DNA of 64,000 nucleotides, taken from positions 1,488,001 to 1,552,000 of the forward strand of contig NC_019779.1 in assembly GCF_000317635.1 (NCBI RefSeq), written 5' to 3'. A model generated the notes under the pieces. The model made no database searches, had not been told where the DNA came from, and was given only the letters and a program-made list of their open reading frames with translations. Positions 20,766 to 29,976 of this stretch are shown piece after piece (position 1 is the first letter of the stretch; each line of letters begins with the position of its first letter). The position numbers were made by a program, and so were the translations under genes. This DNA is from Halothece sp. PCC 7418 (GTDB lineage: Bacteria; Cyanobacteriota; Cyanobacteriia; Cyanobacteriales; Rubidibacteraceae).

Positions 20766-21632
20766 CTAAGTTATAAAACCTGAATGGAGGTTTTTAATAT
20801 ACTCAGAGGTTGGATAAACATCAGGTGGACCCATTTCTAGGACTCTATTAAAGGCTTCATGAACTACTGGTGGAGGATTATCATCAAAAGTATCACCAAA
20901 AGGAATGGGAAAACCTTCGCGATGTATTTCTATATTTTCCATAAAACCTATCATCTTTGCATATTCGCAACAATCAATAATACTGATAATTGAAAGTTCT
21001 GGTTCAAAAAGAGATAGTTGTTGAGAAGCAGTTAAAGATCCAATAACAACAAATCTATCCCCTGGATAAATATTGATGATTTCACTTAAAGAAGAATCTT
21101 GTATTCCATGATCTTTAGCTAATTTAATTAATTTAGAAGGATCATCTTCTGGTCTAGTTGTTAGAAGCACATGATCTCCTAGTTTACACCCCCAAAAGTT
21201 TTCCAGATTAGGTTTGTCTGTAAGCCAATTTTTATATCTAAATAGAAGAAGAATACTCTTAGAGTAGAAGTTCCATCTAAAAGTAGTCTCTTTATTTAAC
21301 TTATGAATTCCTCTAGGTGGCTGAGGTGAATTGTTTTCAAATTCATTGTAAATTACTTCTTCAACTGTTGATATTGCCTGATCTAAAGGTAGAATAAAAA
21401 ATTCTCGATTAGCTCGATAGCGATATCTTTTCAGTTTTTGGTGTAATCGTTTTTCAGCAAGAAAACAGTCAGGAACATCTCTTTCGTAGCAAACATTAAA
21501 GTCATCTGGTAAGCCTGTAGTAGATAATTCTTTTGCTCTTTGGAAAACTTCACGTTCTGTACGTCCAATTTTGAGCATATCTGAGCTAAAAGCAGGATTT
21601 TGCATAATGTAAACAGAACCCCTACTCATCAT
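20766..21632 (-). CDS. T5orf172/GIY-YIG-type nuclease-domain protein
   Basis: A 288-residue protein whose N-terminal 90 residues match the T5orf172 branch of the GIY-YIG fold: GSVYIMQNPAFSSDMLKIGRT, then the arginine-containing REVFQRAKELSTTGLP and the glutamate-containing DCFLAEKRLHQKL. The C-terminal 190 residues (including GCKLGDHVLLTTRPEDDPSK and IYPGDRFVVIGSL) are not recognised. Start 21632 is chosen because GAGG precedes it at a good distance; in-frame ATG 21638 and GTG 21644 also exist. A perfect palindrome lies 39 bases upstream. The AT-rich gene looks horizontally acquired and abuts a truncated xisH. Confidence 0.7.
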   Translation of the reverse strand: MMSRGSVYIMQNPAFSSDMLKIGRTEREVFQRAKELSTTGLPDDFNVCYERDVPDCFLAEKRLHQKLKRYRYRANREFFILPLDQAISTVEEVIYNEFENNSPQPPRGIHKLNKETTFRWNFYSKSILLLFRYKNWLTDKPNLENFWGCKLGDHVLLTTRPEDDPSKLIKLAKDHGIQDSSLSEIINIYPGDRFVVIGSLTASQQLSLFEPELSIISIIDCCEYAKMIGFMENIEIHREGFPIPFGDTFDDNPPPVVHEAFNRVLEMGPPDVYPTSEYIKNLHSGFIT

Positions 21633-21670
21633 CTTCATCCTCACATTTATTTAAGCCATTGCAAGCAGTA

Positions 21671-21699: not shown

Positions 21700-21825
21700 C
21701 AAGTTGTACCTTATTACGAAACATTCTTCCAGTATGAATTTACTCAGCTTGCAGTAAAACAGTATCAAGTCTCCATTATTGTCTATGATCCAGCAAATGA
21801 GGTGATTATGCAATGGGAAAAGTAG
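21700..21825 (+). pseudogene. xisH remnant (C-terminal end only)
   Basis: Frame ending at stop 21823-21825 encodes about 41 codons, including YETFFQYEFTQLAVKQYQ and VSIIVYDPANEVIMQWEK, which match the C-terminus of XisH (fdxN-element excision controlling factor family). An in-frame stop lies at 21697 and no XisH N-terminus precedes it; the region upstream is occupied by the reversed T5orf172 gene. The remnant overlaps the xisI start by 13 bases, the usual xisH-xisI overlap. Confidence 0.7.
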
Positions 21826-22148
21826 ATCGCTATCGAGAATATGTTCAGACATTACTCAGCGAGTATGCTGCTGATGATGTCTCCACTGATGAAGTGGAAG
21901 TCCAACTCATCTTTGATACAGAACGAGATCATTATCAGTGGATGAATGTTGGTTGGCAACAATTACATCGAATTTATCGTTGCATCATTCACTTTGACAT
22001 TAAAAATGATAAGATTTGGCTTCAACAAAATCTAACCGACCAAAATCCTGCAGATGATTTAGTTGTCATGGGAGTTCCGAAAGAAGATATTGTGTTAGGG
22101 TTACAACCTCCTCTCAAACGCCAGTACACTGATTATGGTGCAGCTTGA
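21813..22148 (+). CDS. xisI: XisI family protein
   Basis: A 111-residue intact XisI-family protein (MGKVDRYREYVQTLLSEYA, FDTERDHYQWMNVGWQQLHRIYRC, VMGVPKEDIVLGLQPPLKR). The family was named from the Anabaena fdxN excision element, but most copies, usually paired with xisH, have no known element and spread like toxin-antitoxin-type cassettes. Here its partner xisH is reduced to a fragment, so it is an orphan. Confidence 0.88.
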   Translation: MGKVDRYREYVQTLLSEYAADDVSTDEVEVQLIFDTERDHYQWMNVGWQQLHRIYRCIIHFDIKNDKIWLQQNLTDQNPADDLVVMGVPKEDIVLGLQPPLKRQYTDYGAA

Positions 22149-22219: not shown

Positions 22220-22438
22220 ATGAGTCAGCACACAAGACAAGTTATTTTATACAAGGATGAAGACGGTTATTGGATTGTCGAGTGTCCCAGCCTGAAAGGA
22301 TGTCATAGTCAAGGAAGGACAAAAGAGGAAGCTCTCTCGAATATTAAGGAAGCCATTGTGGGCTATATTGCTGCTTTGGAAGAGGACGGTCTCCAGGTTC
22401 CAGAAGATGATTTTGAAACATTTTTAGTGGTGGTGTGA
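22220..22438 (+). CDS. hicB: HicB-family antitoxin
   Basis: A 72-residue HicB partial RNase H-like fold: VILYKDEDGYWIVECPSLKGCHSQGRTKEEALSNIKEAI (read in two parts around residues 9-30 and 30-48). The DNA-binding tail found in longer HicB proteins is absent. It precedes hicA with a 4-base GTGA overlap, the reverse of the classical hicA-hicB order but common in cyanobacteria. Confidence 0.88.
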   Translation: MSQHTRQVILYKDEDGYWIVECPSLKGCHSQGRTKEEALSNIKEAIVGYIAALEEDGLQVPEDDFETFLVVV

Positions 22439-22656
22439 CTAAGTTACCAAGTATTTCAGGTCAAGAATGTATTAAGGCTCTGGAAAAGATTGGTTTTTAT
22501 CAAAAGCGACAAGCAGGTAGCCATATTATCATGCGAAGAGATGAACCCTTTACCCAAGTTGTTGTTCCCAATCATTCAGAAATTGCCAAAGGGACACTCA
22601 GATCAATTATTCGAGAGATTGGATTGAGTGTTGATGAGTTTATTGCGTTTCTGTAG
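22435..22656 (+). CDS. hicA: HicA-family mRNA interferase toxin
   Basis: A 73-residue double-stranded-RNA-binding-fold toxin. The catalytic His30 is in the conserved RQAGSHIIMRR, and VVVPNHSEIAKGTLRSIIREIGLS is the typical C-terminal half. It starts at GTG 22435 overlapping the hicB stop, so synthesis is coupled to the antitoxin. Confidence 0.9.
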   Translation: MTKLPSISGQECIKALEKIGFYQKRQAGSHIIMRRDEPFTQVVVPNHSEIAKGTLRSIIREIGLSVDEFIAFL

Positions 22657-24478: not shown

Positions 24479-27007
24479 CTAGATCAGTAAACTTTGTAAA
24501 CGCATCAGTTGTCCGCTACTCAGATACAGGAGATCGCCTTTTCCTAATAAGTGTGCAGCTTGGGTTTGATTTCCGCCTAAAATGATTTTAGAATCGGCTT
24601 CGGTACTGGTTTTTAGCGCAACTCTTCCAGGAAGGTTAGAACGGATGATGGGAGTGACAATTTTGGCTTCTGGGCGTTGGGTAGAAATGATTAAATGAAT
24701 TCCTGCTGCTCTTGCCATTGCGCCTAAGCGTTTGATGCTATATTCTAACGCTTCGCGATCGTCTTTTTCAACCATAAAATCGGCGTATTCATCAAACACA
24801 CATATAATATGAGGAACAGGTGTTTTCTCTTTTTCTATTAGCTTGTGGTTATAGCTTTTTAGATCAGAACATTGGGCTTGCTCAAATTGTTGATATCGTT
24901 GTTCCATTTCTGAGACTAATTGTTCCATAAATTGGATGGCGCGATCGCGCTCTTTAATCACAGGAGACATTAACCAAGGACTATTTTCAAACTCAGGAAA
25001 GGTCACTCGTTTCGGATCAATTAAAACAATTTTGACCACTTCTTTCGGATAACGACGAATTAAACTTAAGACTAAACTTTTCAGAAATTCGCTTTTTCCA
25101 CTTCCGGTTGTTCCACCGACTAAAAAGTGACAACTGTTGGGATCAGATAAGTCCGCATCAACTAAATTACTATCTAAATCAACCCCCATTGCAATTTTAA
25201 TGTCTGAGTGATTATTTGAGGCTTCAATATAATCATTAAATTGAACAATTTCTCGGCGCGATCGGGGTAAATCCACACTAATATATCCTGCTTGGGGAGA
25301 AATCAAAGGAGGGCTAGAAAGACCCATTTGCACTTGCATATCAGTAGCGCGATTAAGAATAGAAACAACTTTTACACCCAGTTGAGGCTTTAATCGAATC
25401 CGAATAAATGATGCGCTAACCGTTGCGCCTTGATAATCTGCATTAACCCCATACGCCTGTAATATTTCTGCGAGTTGCTGTCCTAAGTTTTCTGCTTCTT
25501 TATTTATTTTTTCCTTTTTTAGTTTAGGTTTTTCTTCCTTGTGTGATAACTCTATAGTTTGTTTTTGGGGCTGAGAAGAGTCTGTTTTAAAATAAGTTTG
25601 ACAAGTTTCTTGTTGCGGACAAATTGGACAAAGTTGTTCCGTTTGATGGGTTTCTGGTGGCGGATCAGGTTGCGATGGTTTCCAACTTAACCAGTCTCGC
25701 ATTTGTTGGAGTTTTAAGGGGGTTAATTCATGAACAGTATCTTTTAATTGTTCCCAAGTGTAGAAATAACTTTTAAACTCAGGTAAAACGCAATAAACAG
25801 CACTATCAACACGCTCTTGTTTATTCAAATGTAAAATATAACTATATAATGCGACTTGAGCCAGTTGTGCGGAAGGATCAAGAGGCGCATAAGTTTTATA
25901 CTCTACCATACATAAGCGATTTTTTTCGAGATCACGAATTAAACTATCAAACTTCCCTTCAATTTTCTGCATTTTCTGATTCGGAAGTGGATAGTCACAA
26001 GAGACAGCAACTTCTTGGGAAACAAAGGTTTGACTAATGACATTATGATAATTAACGTAGTAACGATTGCGAATGAGGAGTCTAGCCCAATGTTGGATTA
26101 AACCTCTTAAACCTTCCCAAATTTGTTGTAAAATCGGAACGTTTTCTGGTTTAGATTGAGCCACTTTTTGTAACCCTTGGAAAAAGATTTGATCATAAAA
26201 TCTCCTTTGCATTTTATATGCAACTGTCTCGGACTCCAGTTGGTGAGGTTTGGGCTTAAAAATTTCTTTAAACTCAGGGTCGGTTTTTGCAAATTCAATA
26301 AACTTAAAGGCAAATTTATGAAATGGTTGTCCAATTCCTTTTGGTTGATCAGAGGGAATAAATAAAGTTTTTCCGCCAAAATGTTTACTCAAATAAAATA
26401 AGCGTGGACATTCAAATGCAACTCGAACGTCAGTGACACTAAATTTAGAAAAGTTGGTTTGAGTCATGGGCTGGAAGTTTAATAAATAATGATGAACATG
26501 GGCTAAATAAATCACATCCATTGCAGCATAATCTAATTGTTTTGCATCAAGAGGACGCTGTTTCCAATTACTACTTTGTTGTTGAGTATCAACTTCATTT
26601 TCAGAAAAATTGCAAAGTTCGACTGCGAGAGTTTTTAGTTTTAAGTTAGAAGTTCTTAAATACTGTTTAGAAATTTTCTGAGCTAGTTTATAAGTGCAAG
26701 TGATGTTTTTAGCCTTTTCTTTACCTAAATATCTTAAATCAAAGGAGGCGTTATGAAAGACTTTTTCAATTTTCTCATCTCTCATCACTTGGTCAATAAA
26801 CAGCGCAATTAATTCAGGTTGCTTCAACACATCTAAAACATAAACCGCTTTTACTGAAGCTGCTTTGGGATCAGTCAATACTTGAATCAGAGAAAGTTGA
26901 GGATTTTTTGTTTTCCAATCTGCAATTTCTGTGTCTATCCACAGTATTGAATATTGAGATAGTTCTTGTATAATCTGCTTAATTGTAATGGAGTCATTGA
27001 GAGACAT
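24479..27007 (-). CDS. Three-part nuclease-translocase: DEDDy exonuclease + Cas4-like nuclease + FtsK/HerA ATPase
   Basis: An 842-residue fusion. Residues 1-180 are an RNase D-type 3'-5' exonuclease: Asp25 and Glu27 in WIDTEIADW, Asp90 in VFHNASFD, Tyr160 and Asp164 in LDYAAMDVIYL. Residues 190-475 are a PD-(D/E)XK nuclease of Cas4/AddB type: KIEGKFDSL (Asp354), VEYKTY (Glu369, Lys371), QLAQVALYSY, with cysteines 200, 460, 463 and 469 fitting a 4-Cys Fe-S cluster. A charged linker follows. Residues 520-842 are FtsK/SpoIIIE-like: Walker A GGTTGSGKS near 631, LIDPKR, Walker B CVFDEYADF near 737 and ISTQRPEAK. No FtsK membrane or gamma domain is present. All catalytic residues look intact. It is last in a three-gene operon, one base after the AAA+ gene. 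DNA end resection or defence is inferred; the function is unknown. Confidence 0.85.
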   Translation of the reverse strand: MSLNDSITIKQIIQELSQYSILWIDTEIADWKTKNPQLSLIQVLTDPKAASVKAVYVLDVLKQPELIALFIDQVMRDEKIEKVFHNASFDLRYLGKEKAKNITCTYKLAQKISKQYLRTSNLKLKTLAVELCNFSENEVDTQQQSSNWKQRPLDAKQLDYAAMDVIYLAHVHHYLLNFQPMTQTNFSKFSVTDVRVAFECPRLFYLSKHFGGKTLFIPSDQPKGIGQPFHKFAFKFIEFAKTDPEFKEIFKPKPHQLESETVAYKMQRRFYDQIFFQGLQKVAQSKPENVPILQQIWEGLRGLIQHWARLLIRNRYYVNYHNVISQTFVSQEVAVSCDYPLPNQKMQKIEGKFDSLIRDLEKNRLCMVEYKTYAPLDPSAQLAQVALYSYILHLNKQERVDSAVYCVLPEFKSYFYTWEQLKDTVHELTPLKLQQMRDWLSWKPSQPDPPPETHQTEQLCPICPQQETCQTYFKTDSSQPQKQTIELSHKEEKPKLKKEKINKEAENLGQQLAEILQAYGVNADYQGATVSASFIRIRLKPQLGVKVVSILNRATDMQVQMGLSSPPLISPQAGYISVDLPRSRREIVQFNDYIEASNNHSDIKIAMGVDLDSNLVDADLSDPNSCHFLVGGTTGSGKSEFLKSLVLSLIRRYPKEVVKIVLIDPKRVTFPEFENSPWLMSPVIKERDRAIQFMEQLVSEMEQRYQQFEQAQCSDLKSYNHKLIEKEKTPVPHIICVFDEYADFMVEKDDREALEYSIKRLGAMARAAGIHLIISTQRPEAKIVTPIIRSNLPGRVALKTSTEADSKIILGGNQTQAAHLLGKGDLLYLSSGQLMRLQSLLI

Positions 27008-28981
27008 TTATTTTCTTTTTTTTGATGAGTTGATTGAAATAATTTGTGCTTCTATTTTTAGATTAGGATTAACAATTAAAATTTCTTTTTCATTAATGAG
27101 TGTTTCAAGACAAAGGTTAATATCTGCTGCTGTCGTTTGATCTTTAAATTCTGTTATCACTTTATCTGTTAATGCTTGTCTTCCAATAAGTGAAGTTGTT
27201 TTAACAAGGTTCAGAATATATTCTTTAAGTTGTAGCTGAGGTTGAGGGGGAGTAACTTTACTCGGATCACTTTCTTGACTTTCTAAGATTTCTAACTGAT
27301 TAAGAAGTTGACAGTCATTGAAGACAGCAGATTCACGAGTTAATTCTTGTAATCGCTTTATATCTGGAGTTTCATAGCCAATGGTTAAATTCTGATTGGT
27401 TGTAAAACTATAAAGCCTATGATAAGTAGCTAAGATATGAATTGAGTTTAAATCAGGTTTTAGATGAAGATTGAGAGAATTTTGAAAGATTTTTTGGAAT
27501 AATTTATAACCTTGATTTTGAGGTTTACCCATACTTTGGGAACGAATTAAGATGATTTTCTCATAGATTTTAGATTGAGAGAGATCATCTAATGCTTTCA
27601 TTAAACTACAAAAACTTCCTAAATTAGGCTGGTCATACCAAATCAGCGCATTCTTTTGATCACTATTTCGATTATAAATAAAACTTTTGACAGCAAAGGA
27701 ACTCTTTTTATTAAAAATATTGAACTGAGTTTGATAATCAAAAACCTCAATTGACTCTTGTAACATTTTTGCCAATTCTGCTGAAGAAAATTCGTAGATT
27801 GTATTAATTTTTTCTTGTATTATTTTGAGTTCTTCACGCCAAACTAACTGAAATGCTGCAATGGAATCAGGTGGATCAACACGACCAGTTTTATAATATT
27901 GGATTAATTCATGACCTGCTTTTAGGGCGTTTCTCGGATCAGCTTTACCACTAGGAAAATATGATTTTAAGTCTTTTCTATTTAAGGGTGCAATCCTAGA
28001 TTCAGGAAGTTTTTGAAGTTGCTGATGTAAGGGTCTAAGATGAATTGACCACAGGGCTTCAATTTGTTCAGTTGTAATGGGTTTTAAGGAAAGAGTTTGA
28101 TTGATTGGTGCTTTCAGTGAACCTGTCAGCGAGTCTTCATATTTTTTCCAAGTATCAGTAATGACACTCAAGATAACCAGAAAGTTTTTAAGTTTCTGGC
28201 TGTGAATGATCATATTTAATTTTAAGATCGATTCTAATAAATCCTGACGGTTATGACTAATATCTATTTCATCAAAACATAAAACAATGGGTAAAGTTGA
28301 TTTAGAAATGCGACTAAAGTTAGTCAACATATTCATCGCATCATCTTCTGTCTGAATCGTTACTTTTACACCGAGGCTTGTTAAGTCTTCATCATCTAGA
28401 TCATCTCCTTTTAACCATCCACAAGCTAAATAATATAAATCAGGTTGAGTGAGCGCATATAAGACACTAAAAAATGAATTGGGTTTCCAAATTCCACTGG
28501 GATAGGCTGCTTTCATATTATTGATGAATGTTTTTTTCTTTCCCAGTATTTTTTGAGATATTATTCCACTTTGCTGATTAATAATGCGTTTTAACCATAG
28601 TAAGAGTTGTGATTCAGTTTCTCCTTCAGGAATAAACATTAAACTCTCTATTGTTTTCCGAAGGGTATATTGACAAATGTACTCAGTTTGAATGGAAGCA
28701 ATAATATGAGCAAAGAATGCTTTTCGATTCAGACTCTTTTTAATGCGACCTAAAAGATGAGTTTTTCCCGATCCACTATCCCCTTCTAAGCGAATAGTAC
28801 GGCTTTTTTTATCTTGATAAATTTGCTTTAAAGTTTTTTCAACCGTCTCTAAAATATCTTGATGAATCGAGTTAATATTTAAGTCTTCTGGTTGCTCTTC
28901 TTCCCAAAAATTTCCTTTCTTAAAATTGGCGGTGTCAAAAGGATTGATAGATTGTTTAATAATCGTTTCTAAATCTGACAT
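27008..28981 (-). CDS. ORC/Cdc6-like AAA+ ATPase of the nuclease-translocase operon
   Basis: A 657-residue ATP-binding protein. Walker A GDSGSGKTHLL is at residues 67-76 and Walker B LPIVLCFDEIDIS at 230-242; SGKADPRNALKAG near 345-355 may hold a sensor-2-type arginine. The C-terminal 250 residues have no recognised domain but end with a winged-helix-like segment (LKEYILNLVKTTSLIGRQ and TAADINLCLETLINEKEI). The pattern resembles STAND or ORC-like loaders. It lies 2 bases after the winged-helix gene and abuts the nuclease-translocase gene, so the three are surely co-expressed. It may load or gate the translocase on DNA; this is inference. Confidence 0.75.
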   Translation of the reverse strand: MSDLETIIKQSINPFDTANFKKGNFWEEEQPEDLNINSIHQDILETVEKTLKQIYQDKKSRTIRLEGDSGSGKTHLLGRIKKSLNRKAFFAHIIASIQTEYICQYTLRKTIESLMFIPEGETESQLLLWLKRIINQQSGIISQKILGKKKTFINNMKAAYPSGIWKPNSFFSVLYALTQPDLYYLACGWLKGDDLDDEDLTSLGVKVTIQTEDDAMNMLTNFSRISKSTLPIVLCFDEIDISHNRQDLLESILKLNMIIHSQKLKNFLVILSVITDTWKKYEDSLTGSLKAPINQTLSLKPITTEQIEALWSIHLRPLHQQLQKLPESRIAPLNRKDLKSYFPSGKADPRNALKAGHELIQYYKTGRVDPPDSIAAFQLVWREELKIIQEKINTIYEFSSAELAKMLQESIEVFDYQTQFNIFNKKSSFAVKSFIYNRNSDQKNALIWYDQPNLGSFCSLMKALDDLSQSKIYEKIILIRSQSMGKPQNQGYKLFQKIFQNSLNLHLKPDLNSIHILATYHRLYSFTTNQNLTIGYETPDIKRLQELTRESAVFNDCQLLNQLEILESQESDPSKVTPPQPQLQLKEYILNLVKTTSLIGRQALTDKVITEFKDQTTAADINLCLETLINEKEILIVNPNLKIEAQIISINSSKKRK

Positions 28982-28983
28982 AC

Positions 28984-29820
28984 CTAAGCTCTTTCATGAT
29001 TCACTTGGATAAAAAATAAAGATCCCCCAATTCGTTGGGAAATCCCTGCTTTTAATTGTTCTGACGTATAACCTTCTGTCTCGGTGATGGAACTTAACTG
29101 AATTTGATTGTTAGCTTGTAAACGATATAACACTTGGTCTAATTCTTCTCGTGTCAAGGGCGGTTGTAATTGCTTGCGGAGATAAAAAATAGGTAAAAAA
29201 TTATTCATTTTATATTCCTCATCTAATTGGATAATGACTTCTAATACCTCTTCATCTGATAAGTTATGATACAGCTTTTCATTTTCATTAACGGGACTTT
29301 GTTGATCTATAGTCGGGGTTAGTTTGTAATTCCGAAGAAAATTCAAATAGTTACCCAACATATCTAAACTTAAGACAGAAGCTGTTCCACTGGGGTTAAA
29401 TTCTTGAGCAAGAAAAGTTTTTCCGTTTTCACATAAAGCAATTTTTTTCGGGATTGACTGTGTAACAGTAATGAATCCTCGTTCAACTAGACTTTGAGCT
29501 AATTTAATTTTAGGAGATACCTGTATTTCTTTTAAGAAGATACTTTTTTCAGCGCAAGCATTAAGAATCTTGAATTCTTTTTTTGTAATGGGTAATTCTG
29601 AAGAGTTAATGTTTAGAAGTGCTTTTCCAGAAGCAGTAATTTTGATTTTAGCGATTTCACTTTCTAGAATTTCTATTAAGTTTTGATCGCGCAACTGATA
29701 ACAAATGCGATTACATTCCGATATTGGGGTCTTGACGGTCGGTTTAACAGAATTGACTTTTGCTTCGTATCCGTCTTCTCCTAAAAGTTTAAGGAGGAGT
29801 TTAATTTCCTTTGTTTTCAT
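28984..29820 (-). CDS. Multi-winged-helix protein, first gene of the nuclease-translocase operon
   Basis: A 278-residue protein with no assigned function. Three winged-helix-like segments can be made out: residues 1-70 (CNRICYQLRDQNLIEILES followed by KIKITASGKALL), 78-135 (LAQSLVERGFITVTQ, then KIALCENGKTFLA) and about 200-275 (LPIFYLRKQLQPPLTREELD, VLYRLQANNQIQLSS). The last resembles adaptor-type winged helices that end in an IGG-hydrophobic strand. It may be a DNA-binding specificity or regulatory subunit. AT-rich upstream DNA (29821-29880) probably holds the operon promoter. Confidence 0.65.
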   Translation of the reverse strand: MKTKEIKLLLKLLGEDGYEAKVNSVKPTVKTPISECNRICYQLRDQNLIEILESEIAKIKITASGKALLNINSSELPITKKEFKILNACAEKSIFLKEIQVSPKIKLAQSLVERGFITVTQSIPKKIALCENGKTFLAQEFNPSGTASVLSLDMLGNYLNFLRNYKLTPTIDQQSPVNENEKLYHNLSDEEVLEVIIQLDEEYKMNNFLPIFYLRKQLQPPLTREELDQVLYRLQANNQIQLSSITETEGYTSEQLKAGISQRIGGSLFFIQVNHERA

Positions 29821-29950: not shown

Positions 29951-29976
29951 TCCCCTGACTGTAGAAAGCCAGGGGA
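29951..29976 (-). terminator. Intrinsic terminator of the ndhCKJ operon
   Basis: On the minus strand TCCCCTG pairs with CAGGGGA around a 12-base loop whose ends also pair partly, followed by GTTTTATATT. It lies just after the ndhJ stop codon. Confidence 0.6.

Follow-up and report, generated by a model that had tools for sequence, protein, structure and literature searches.

The window analysed here is a 64,000-nucleotide stretch of the Halothece sp. PCC 7418 genome (NC_019779.1, positions 1,488,001 to 1,552,000 of the forward strand), and positions below are counted from its first letter unless a locus is named. Our subject is a 5.3 kb operon of three genes on its minus strand, read from gene 1 through gene 2 to gene 3 between 29820 and 24479, with gaps of 2 and 0 bases. 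Open reading frame (ORF) calls place gene 1, for a triple winged helix-turn-helix (wHTH) protein of 278 amino acids (aa), at 28984..29820; gene 2, for an Orc1/Cdc6-like AAA+ ATPase of 657 aa that was also modelled with AlphaFold2, at 27008..28981; and gene 3, whose 842-aa product is recognised by Pfam matches and motifs as an exonuclease / PD-(D/E)XK nuclease / FtsK fusion, at 24479..27007. All domains described below are encoded on the same strand. These are exactly the positions at which an earlier note, made from the sequence alone, had placed a three-gene operon.

The gene 3 protein opens with an RNase D-type DEDDy 3′-5′ exonuclease (residues 5-176; 26480..26995; DNA_pol_A_exo1, PF01612, 4.7e-26), with D25 and E27, N86, D90, and Y160 and D164 as its motif residues. 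A Cas4/RecB-like PD-(D/E)XK nuclease with a four-cysteine Fe-S motif follows (residues 189-470; 25598..26443; PDDEXK_1 2e-12, Cas4 profile 7.9e-6), carrying D354, E369 and K371 together with C200, C460, C463 and C469. The remainder of the protein consists of an FtsK alpha domain (residues 493-581; 25265..25531; FtsK_alpha, PF17854, 1.1e-6) and an FtsK/SpoIIIE motor (residues 596-828; 24524..25222; FtsK_SpoIIIE, PF01580, 1.3e-38) with K638 in Walker A and D739/E740 in Walker B. The motor matches FtsK structures (2iuu, 4.9e-68) and the SspH motor in PADLOC (1e-67), and because the protein stops directly after it, there is no room for the gamma domain of cellular FtsK. NCBIfam and PADLOC agree on these parts, and neither has a model that covers the whole protein. 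The nuclease does not reach the curated Cas4 level (with TIGR00372 it scores 23.9 bits, and the cut-off is 65), and by eye we recognised no CRISPR-type genes among the neighbouring ORFs of the window.

Alignment of 74 homologues, with gaps excluded from the counts, revealed that the catalytic residues of all three domains are nearly invariant. In the exonuclease, D25 and E27, N86 and D90 are each kept in 60/61 sequences, Y160 in 61/62 and D164 in 63/63. The nuclease retains D354 in 68/70, E or D at position 369 in 70/71 and K371 in 69/71, while each of the cysteines 200, 460, 463 and 469 is present in 70/70. The motor keeps Walker A K638 in 64/64 and Walker B D739/E740 in 62/62. Near-invariance of D354, E369 and K371, together with the PDDEXK_1 match, predicts that gene 3 carries an active-type restriction endonuclease (REase). 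The domain content and visible catalytic motifs that the earlier note had read by eye were thus borne out by Pfam and by the alignment. In a tree of the exonuclease domains, standalone RNase D-type genes (about 306 aa) grouped in a single clade that excludes the fused domains. The two are therefore related without recent exchange, and we rejected the idea that housekeeping RNase D was the recent source of the exonuclease.

Some species encode fusion proteins with added domains (L034 7810-12432, L041 9466-12702, L046 6508-9873; L and G numbers are our handles for loci and genomes). The additions seen were TPR and pentapeptide repeats and, by eye, a Ser/Thr kinase-like insert, both of them sensor-like, as well as an HsdR/DUF4145-like N-terminal region, also by eye. 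Two copies of the fusion gene are broken, one in G003 (L033 8003-10227) and the other at G338:C16:13227-23078; one of the two has a frame break in the exonuclease part, and in the other the motor end lies about 7 kb apart.

The AlphaFold2 model of the gene 2 protein (predicted local distance difference test score, pLDDT, 84; predicted template modelling score, pTM, 0.82) comprises an AAA+ core with a helical lid (residues 41-391; 27809..28861), assigned from the model and its fold matches, and, from the secondary structure of the model, an alpha-beta-beta-beta-alpha-beta domain (residues 393-562, with the motif itself at about 400-480; 27296..27805) and a C-terminal wHTH (residues 581-652; 27026..27241). 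In Foldseek/VIA comparisons the top matches were Cdc6/Orc1 and ORC chains (Z 14.8 to 7jgr_G, 14.2 to 1fnn_A), followed by TnsC (7mcs, Z 13.1) and BrxC (9zdx, Z 12.2). The modelled fold thus argues for an Orc/CDC6-family AAA+ ATPase, much as the earlier note had supposed when it called the protein ORC-like. For the middle domain no fold match appeared among the matches listed, where AAA+ matches fill the tables, a result that does not in itself speak against an REase fold; the homologue alignment has no conserved D...(D/E)xK in this domain. Because its predicted strand and helix order is that of the REase fold and this motif is absent, the domain may be an inactive REase insert.

Walker A of gene 2 reads GDSGSGKT and Walker B IVLCFDEI. 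Most homologues end Walker B in FDQ or FDN, and FDE occurs in only four copies standing before a nuclease gene, the window's among them; it is the form found in the window's genus. That most homologues have a non-canonical Walker B suggests an ATPase working as a slow switch, not as a fast motor.

Gene 1 was likewise modelled with AlphaFold2 (pLDDT 82), yielding three helix-helix-helix-wing units: wHTH1 at about 29820-29596, wHTH2 at about 29589-29401 and wHTH3 at about 29256-28996. The multi-winged-helix protein of the earlier note is therefore a triple one in this model. Its residues 1-147 match MarR-type proteins and residues 183-278 a separate wHTH. Between the window and genome G005, gene 1 has the lowest identity of the three genes (61%, against 70 and 81% for the other two).

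The three genes recur together. Among 60 relatives searched, the fusion or large parts of it were present in about 23 genomes at 42-81% identity, and in the regions compared the order winged helix > AAA > exonuclease-nuclease-FtsK came up again, its flanks mostly differing between loci of this initial set. In the wider collection, which lists some genomes under two different locus ids, 48 loci had exactly this order and most of the others were variants of it, either without the exonuclease, without the motor, or with extra ATPase and winged-helix copies; the exonuclease is fused to FtsK in most nuclease-bearing loci. With 48 exact copies and these variants, the gene order is conserved far beyond chance. 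Near-full-length fusions occurred in 31 of 386 evenly sampled genomes, all from the same cyanobacterial order as the window, and a few more genomes of that order had partial or broken ones; ATPase matches (E <= 1e-10, weak ones included) occurred in 56. When GTDB genome contigs were scanned, the best 79 loci were all cyanobacterial. The ratio of nonsynonymous to synonymous substitution (dN/dS) was about 0.1-0.4 in most close pairs, and the operon is under purifying selection. In the window's genus it is found in four of six genomes, at different chromosomal places relative to ndhJ and a sigma-factor gene, and the conjugative plasmid pPSE7367.01 carries a version without the exonuclease, the only plasmid copy found. 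Phage records and viral contigs searched for the ATPase gave no match, and a phage or prophage origin was rejected on that ground. In one genus the operon is split, with the fusion gene and the ATPase gene about 1-2 Mb apart (G104:C1 and G266:C1).

A class with these features was defined computationally in 2024. In that paper (PMC10853773, NAR 2024, gkad1213), HerA/FtsK capture operons couple HerA/FtsK to Orc/CDC6 ATPases in which an inactive REase invariably separates the AAA+ core from the C-terminal wHTH. They also encode an active REase together with HerA/FtsK, one set having an FtsK-alpha domain and being described as captured from cellular FtsK, and a subset encodes a rapidly evolving protein of two to four wHTH units related to DndG. 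Other members fuse a 3′-5′ exonuclease to HerA/FtsK; two REase families are named for the class, one of them shared with AbiJ; and related Orc/CDC6 genes adjoin an REase-ASCH fusion and a triple-wHTH protein. The authors predict a counter-invader role (PMC10853773), and PMC12839542 carries the capture idea over to BREX-related systems; in the limited open-access literature searched, we found no experimental test of the class. The window operon fits this class, and the models match its template, with the middle domain of gene 2 as a candidate for the inactive REase. The earlier note's view of the operon as undescribed, and as a combination found in no known system, must accordingly be withdrawn, since PMC10853773 covers exonuclease-FtsK fusions, FtsK-alpha, Orc/CDC6 ATPases and multi-wHTH proteins; its suggestion of a likely role in processing foreign DNA, by contrast, was judged right.

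Cyanobacteria also encode sister operons in which a winged-helix gene precedes a remote Orc-like ATPase and a DUF1802 + Mrr-type REase (L140-L143, L146, L148, L152). Their REase keeps a D292...E304-C-K306 site, their ATPase aligns with the window ATPase family at an hhalign probability of 99.8%, and their wHTH protein is weakly similar to the window's; they look like the REase-ASCH/triple-wHTH relative described in PMC10853773. In a second operon type, WH > AAA > AAA, no nuclease is adjacent (L133, L134, L135, L137, L055, L056, L063, L065, L079 and others); its first ATPase copies form one well-supported clade, and in its second copies Walker B, where it could be located, always reads FDN. Beside the wHTH protein and Orc-like ATPase the effector thus varies, as exonuclease-nuclease-FtsK, nuclease-FtsK or exonuclease-nuclease, and as DUF1802-REase in the remote sister type. 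Because the effector swaps recurrently beside this pair, we suggest that the wHTH protein and the ATPase are a common targeting module.

We consider it reasonably probable that the window operon is a standalone, modification-free, ATP-driven double-nuclease restriction operon of the Orc/CDC6 + HerA/FtsK capture class. We favour this reading because of the domains, their nearly invariant active sites, the synteny, the folds and the published class, and because of the sister operons, the sensor-like extra domains, the dN/dS values and the accessory behaviour of the operon (present in part of its genus at varied places, with a plasmid copy and with relics or an empty site beside ParA). The triple wHTH protein and the Orc-like ATPase would load on DNA as an ATP-dependent clamp, recognise either the DNA of an invader or an intermediate of replication or transfer, and recruit the gene 3 protein into a putative complex. 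The FtsK motor ring of that protein would then pump duplex DNA, the Fe-S PD-(D/E)XK nuclease on the motor would cut one strand or both, and trimming of the freed 3′ ends by the DEDDy exonuclease would keep the cut from being rejoined; complex formation, polarity, target and a defence function are inferences that go beyond the domain assignments. The class was proposed from sequence alone, and its compact member in the window has three intact catalytic centres, for which point-mutant controls are obvious. As the operon is conserved in cyanobacteria, some of them with genetics and cyanophages, the prediction that a captured FtsK feeds nucleases is directly testable.

Several observations weigh against a restriction role. 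Using PADLOC, we compared 120 neighbour genes with 120 control genes and found no clear enrichment of known defence genes; matches among the neighbours were few (two methyltransferases and single ones), much as in the controls, so the neighbourhood does not furnish the argument for defence that the earlier note had looked for. Glycosyltransferases and ParA were instead frequent among the neighbours, since a single chromosomal site is common to many loci. At this site, seen in many genomes of Nostoc type and some of Oscillatoria type, the operon has glycosyltransferases on one side and a ParA/IleRS pair on the other, a conserved setting that looks more like long vertical inheritance than like a mobile defence island. 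In addition, the assignment of the gene 2 insert as an inactive REase comes only from predicted topology. The shared site, the lack of enrichment and the purifying selection would also suit a chromosomal machine for DNA end processing or maintenance, a counterpart of HerA-NurA or AddAB that the Orc-like protein would load at broken or stalled forks and that would have no defence role, and the motor and FtsK-alpha do resemble cellular FtsK. Such a machine is hard to reconcile with an ATPase in only 56/386 genomes and a near-full-length fusion in 31/386, with absence from two of the six genomes of the genus, with relics and broken copies, with a copy on a conjugative plasmid, or with a fast-evolving wHTH protein and a remotely related ATPase paired with a plain REase, and we regard it as unlikely. 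At the Nostoc-type site itself, two operon-less genomes retain a relic of the FtsK C-terminus that is 84-85% identical (beside ParA, L216 3785-4378 and L218 4309-4845), and another genome has the glycosyltransferases, ParA and IleRS without the operon. The operon has thus resided there for long and been lost repeatedly, a pattern that fits a costly accessory function and is no proof of defence.

The operon could also be the missing restriction partner of Dnd phosphorothioate modification, with the exonuclease and motor stalling at host phosphorothioates and destroying unmarked DNA. The host genome does encode DndC, DndD and a DndB-like protein near the type I restriction gene hsdR (L187 4271-13381, about 3.27-3.28 Mb), about 1.76 Mb from the operon, and DndC is near-universal in the order, with 92 of about 104 genomes. 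It is present in 43/45 genomes with a strong AAA match and in 49/59 without (Fisher p 0.064), an association that is not significant and is confounded by ancestry. No DndH (TIGR03237) match appeared in the 60 relatives, although the controls were also silent and absence is thus not shown. G006 and G104 carry operon genes although neither has a DndC match, the AAA and wHTH proteins have no sequence similarity to SspC or SspB of the reference Ssp system, and DndFGH itself is commonly decoupled from modification, as the 2024 analysis argues (PMC10853773). The p value and the two exceptions led us to reject obligate coupling, and we gave up the idea of linking the exonuclease domain statistically to DndC, as exonuclease-less operons are too few and ancestry confounds the comparison. 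We find a Dnd partnership quite improbable, and its stronger form, an unrecognised restriction arm that tells self from non-self by blocked digestion and not by site recognition, highly improbable. We have equally little expectation that the operon is a transfer or maintenance module, domesticated from a mobile element, that moves itself by using the FtsK motor to pump DNA: the copy on pPSE7367.01 and the different sites within the genus would fit, but the conserved neighbour clusters contain no recurrent relaxase, integrase or transposase gene, the ATPase was found in no phage or viral contig, and two nuclease active sites are strongly constrained.

In the window, one flank of the operon is formed by ndhJ-ndhK-ndhC. 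A hairpin and T-run resembling an intrinsic terminator follows ndhJ on the minus strand (29951..29976; one found in the terminator search, 0.1 expected), and the operon therefore probably forms a separate transcription unit, set apart from the upstream ndh genes; a search for a consensus sigma-70 promoter for the operon found none. The other flank is a sigma factor/anti-sigma/LTXXQ cluster, beyond which lie a HicB-HicA-like toxin-antitoxin pair (22220-22656, by eye) and an xisI-like gene (21813-22148). The earlier note had placed the operon in an accessory zone beside hicAB and xisI; both are there, but more than 1.8 kb away behind the sigma-factor cluster, and the description is therefore a loose one. 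Positions 20766-21644 encode a 292-aa T5orf172-domain protein of the GIY-YIG-type nuclease family.

Among known systems, DndFGH and SspFGH share with the operon a three-gene module of a P-loop ATPase and a protein with a C-terminal FtsK/HerA motor, and DndG resembles the gene 1 protein in having three wHTH units. Both SspH and DndH greatly exceed the gene 3 protein in size, however (about 1,700-1,800 aa for SspH), their N-terminal parts are unrelated to it, and no phosphorothioate modification genes adjoin the window operon. Membership in SspFGH was rejected: the PADLOC match to SspH covers only the motor, which aligns with SspH residues 1442-1771, genes 1 and 2 match no PADLOC model, and the AAA profile has no similarity to the 516-aa gene before SspH in the reference Ssp locus. 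HerA-NurA and AddAB/RecBCD likewise join a motor to a nuclease, and AddB has a RecB-like Fe-S nuclease of the same kind, whereas the window motor is of the FtsK type and not of the HerA or UvrD type, and the operon adds an Orc-like partner, a DEDDy exonuclease and an accessory distribution. Cellular FtsK/SpoIIIE shares the FtsK-alpha and motor domains; gene 3 has nucleases in place of the membrane part and lacks the gamma domain. BREX BrxC and Tn7-type TnsC, Orc/Cdc6-like AAA+ proteins of defence and transposition, are fold neighbours of gene 2, but their partners differ, and no PglZ, methyltransferase or transposase genes accompany the window operon. The closest likeness is to the HerA/FtsK capture operons of PMC10853773, which share the Orc/CDC6 ATPase, perhaps with its REase-like insert before the C-terminal wHTH, the predicted active REase, FtsK-alpha and motor, the multi-wHTH protein and, in some members, the exonuclease-FtsK fusion. 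Relative to that description, the window operon packs exonuclease, nuclease and motor into one polypeptide, and its nuclease is of a Cas4/RecB-like type with four invariant cysteines.

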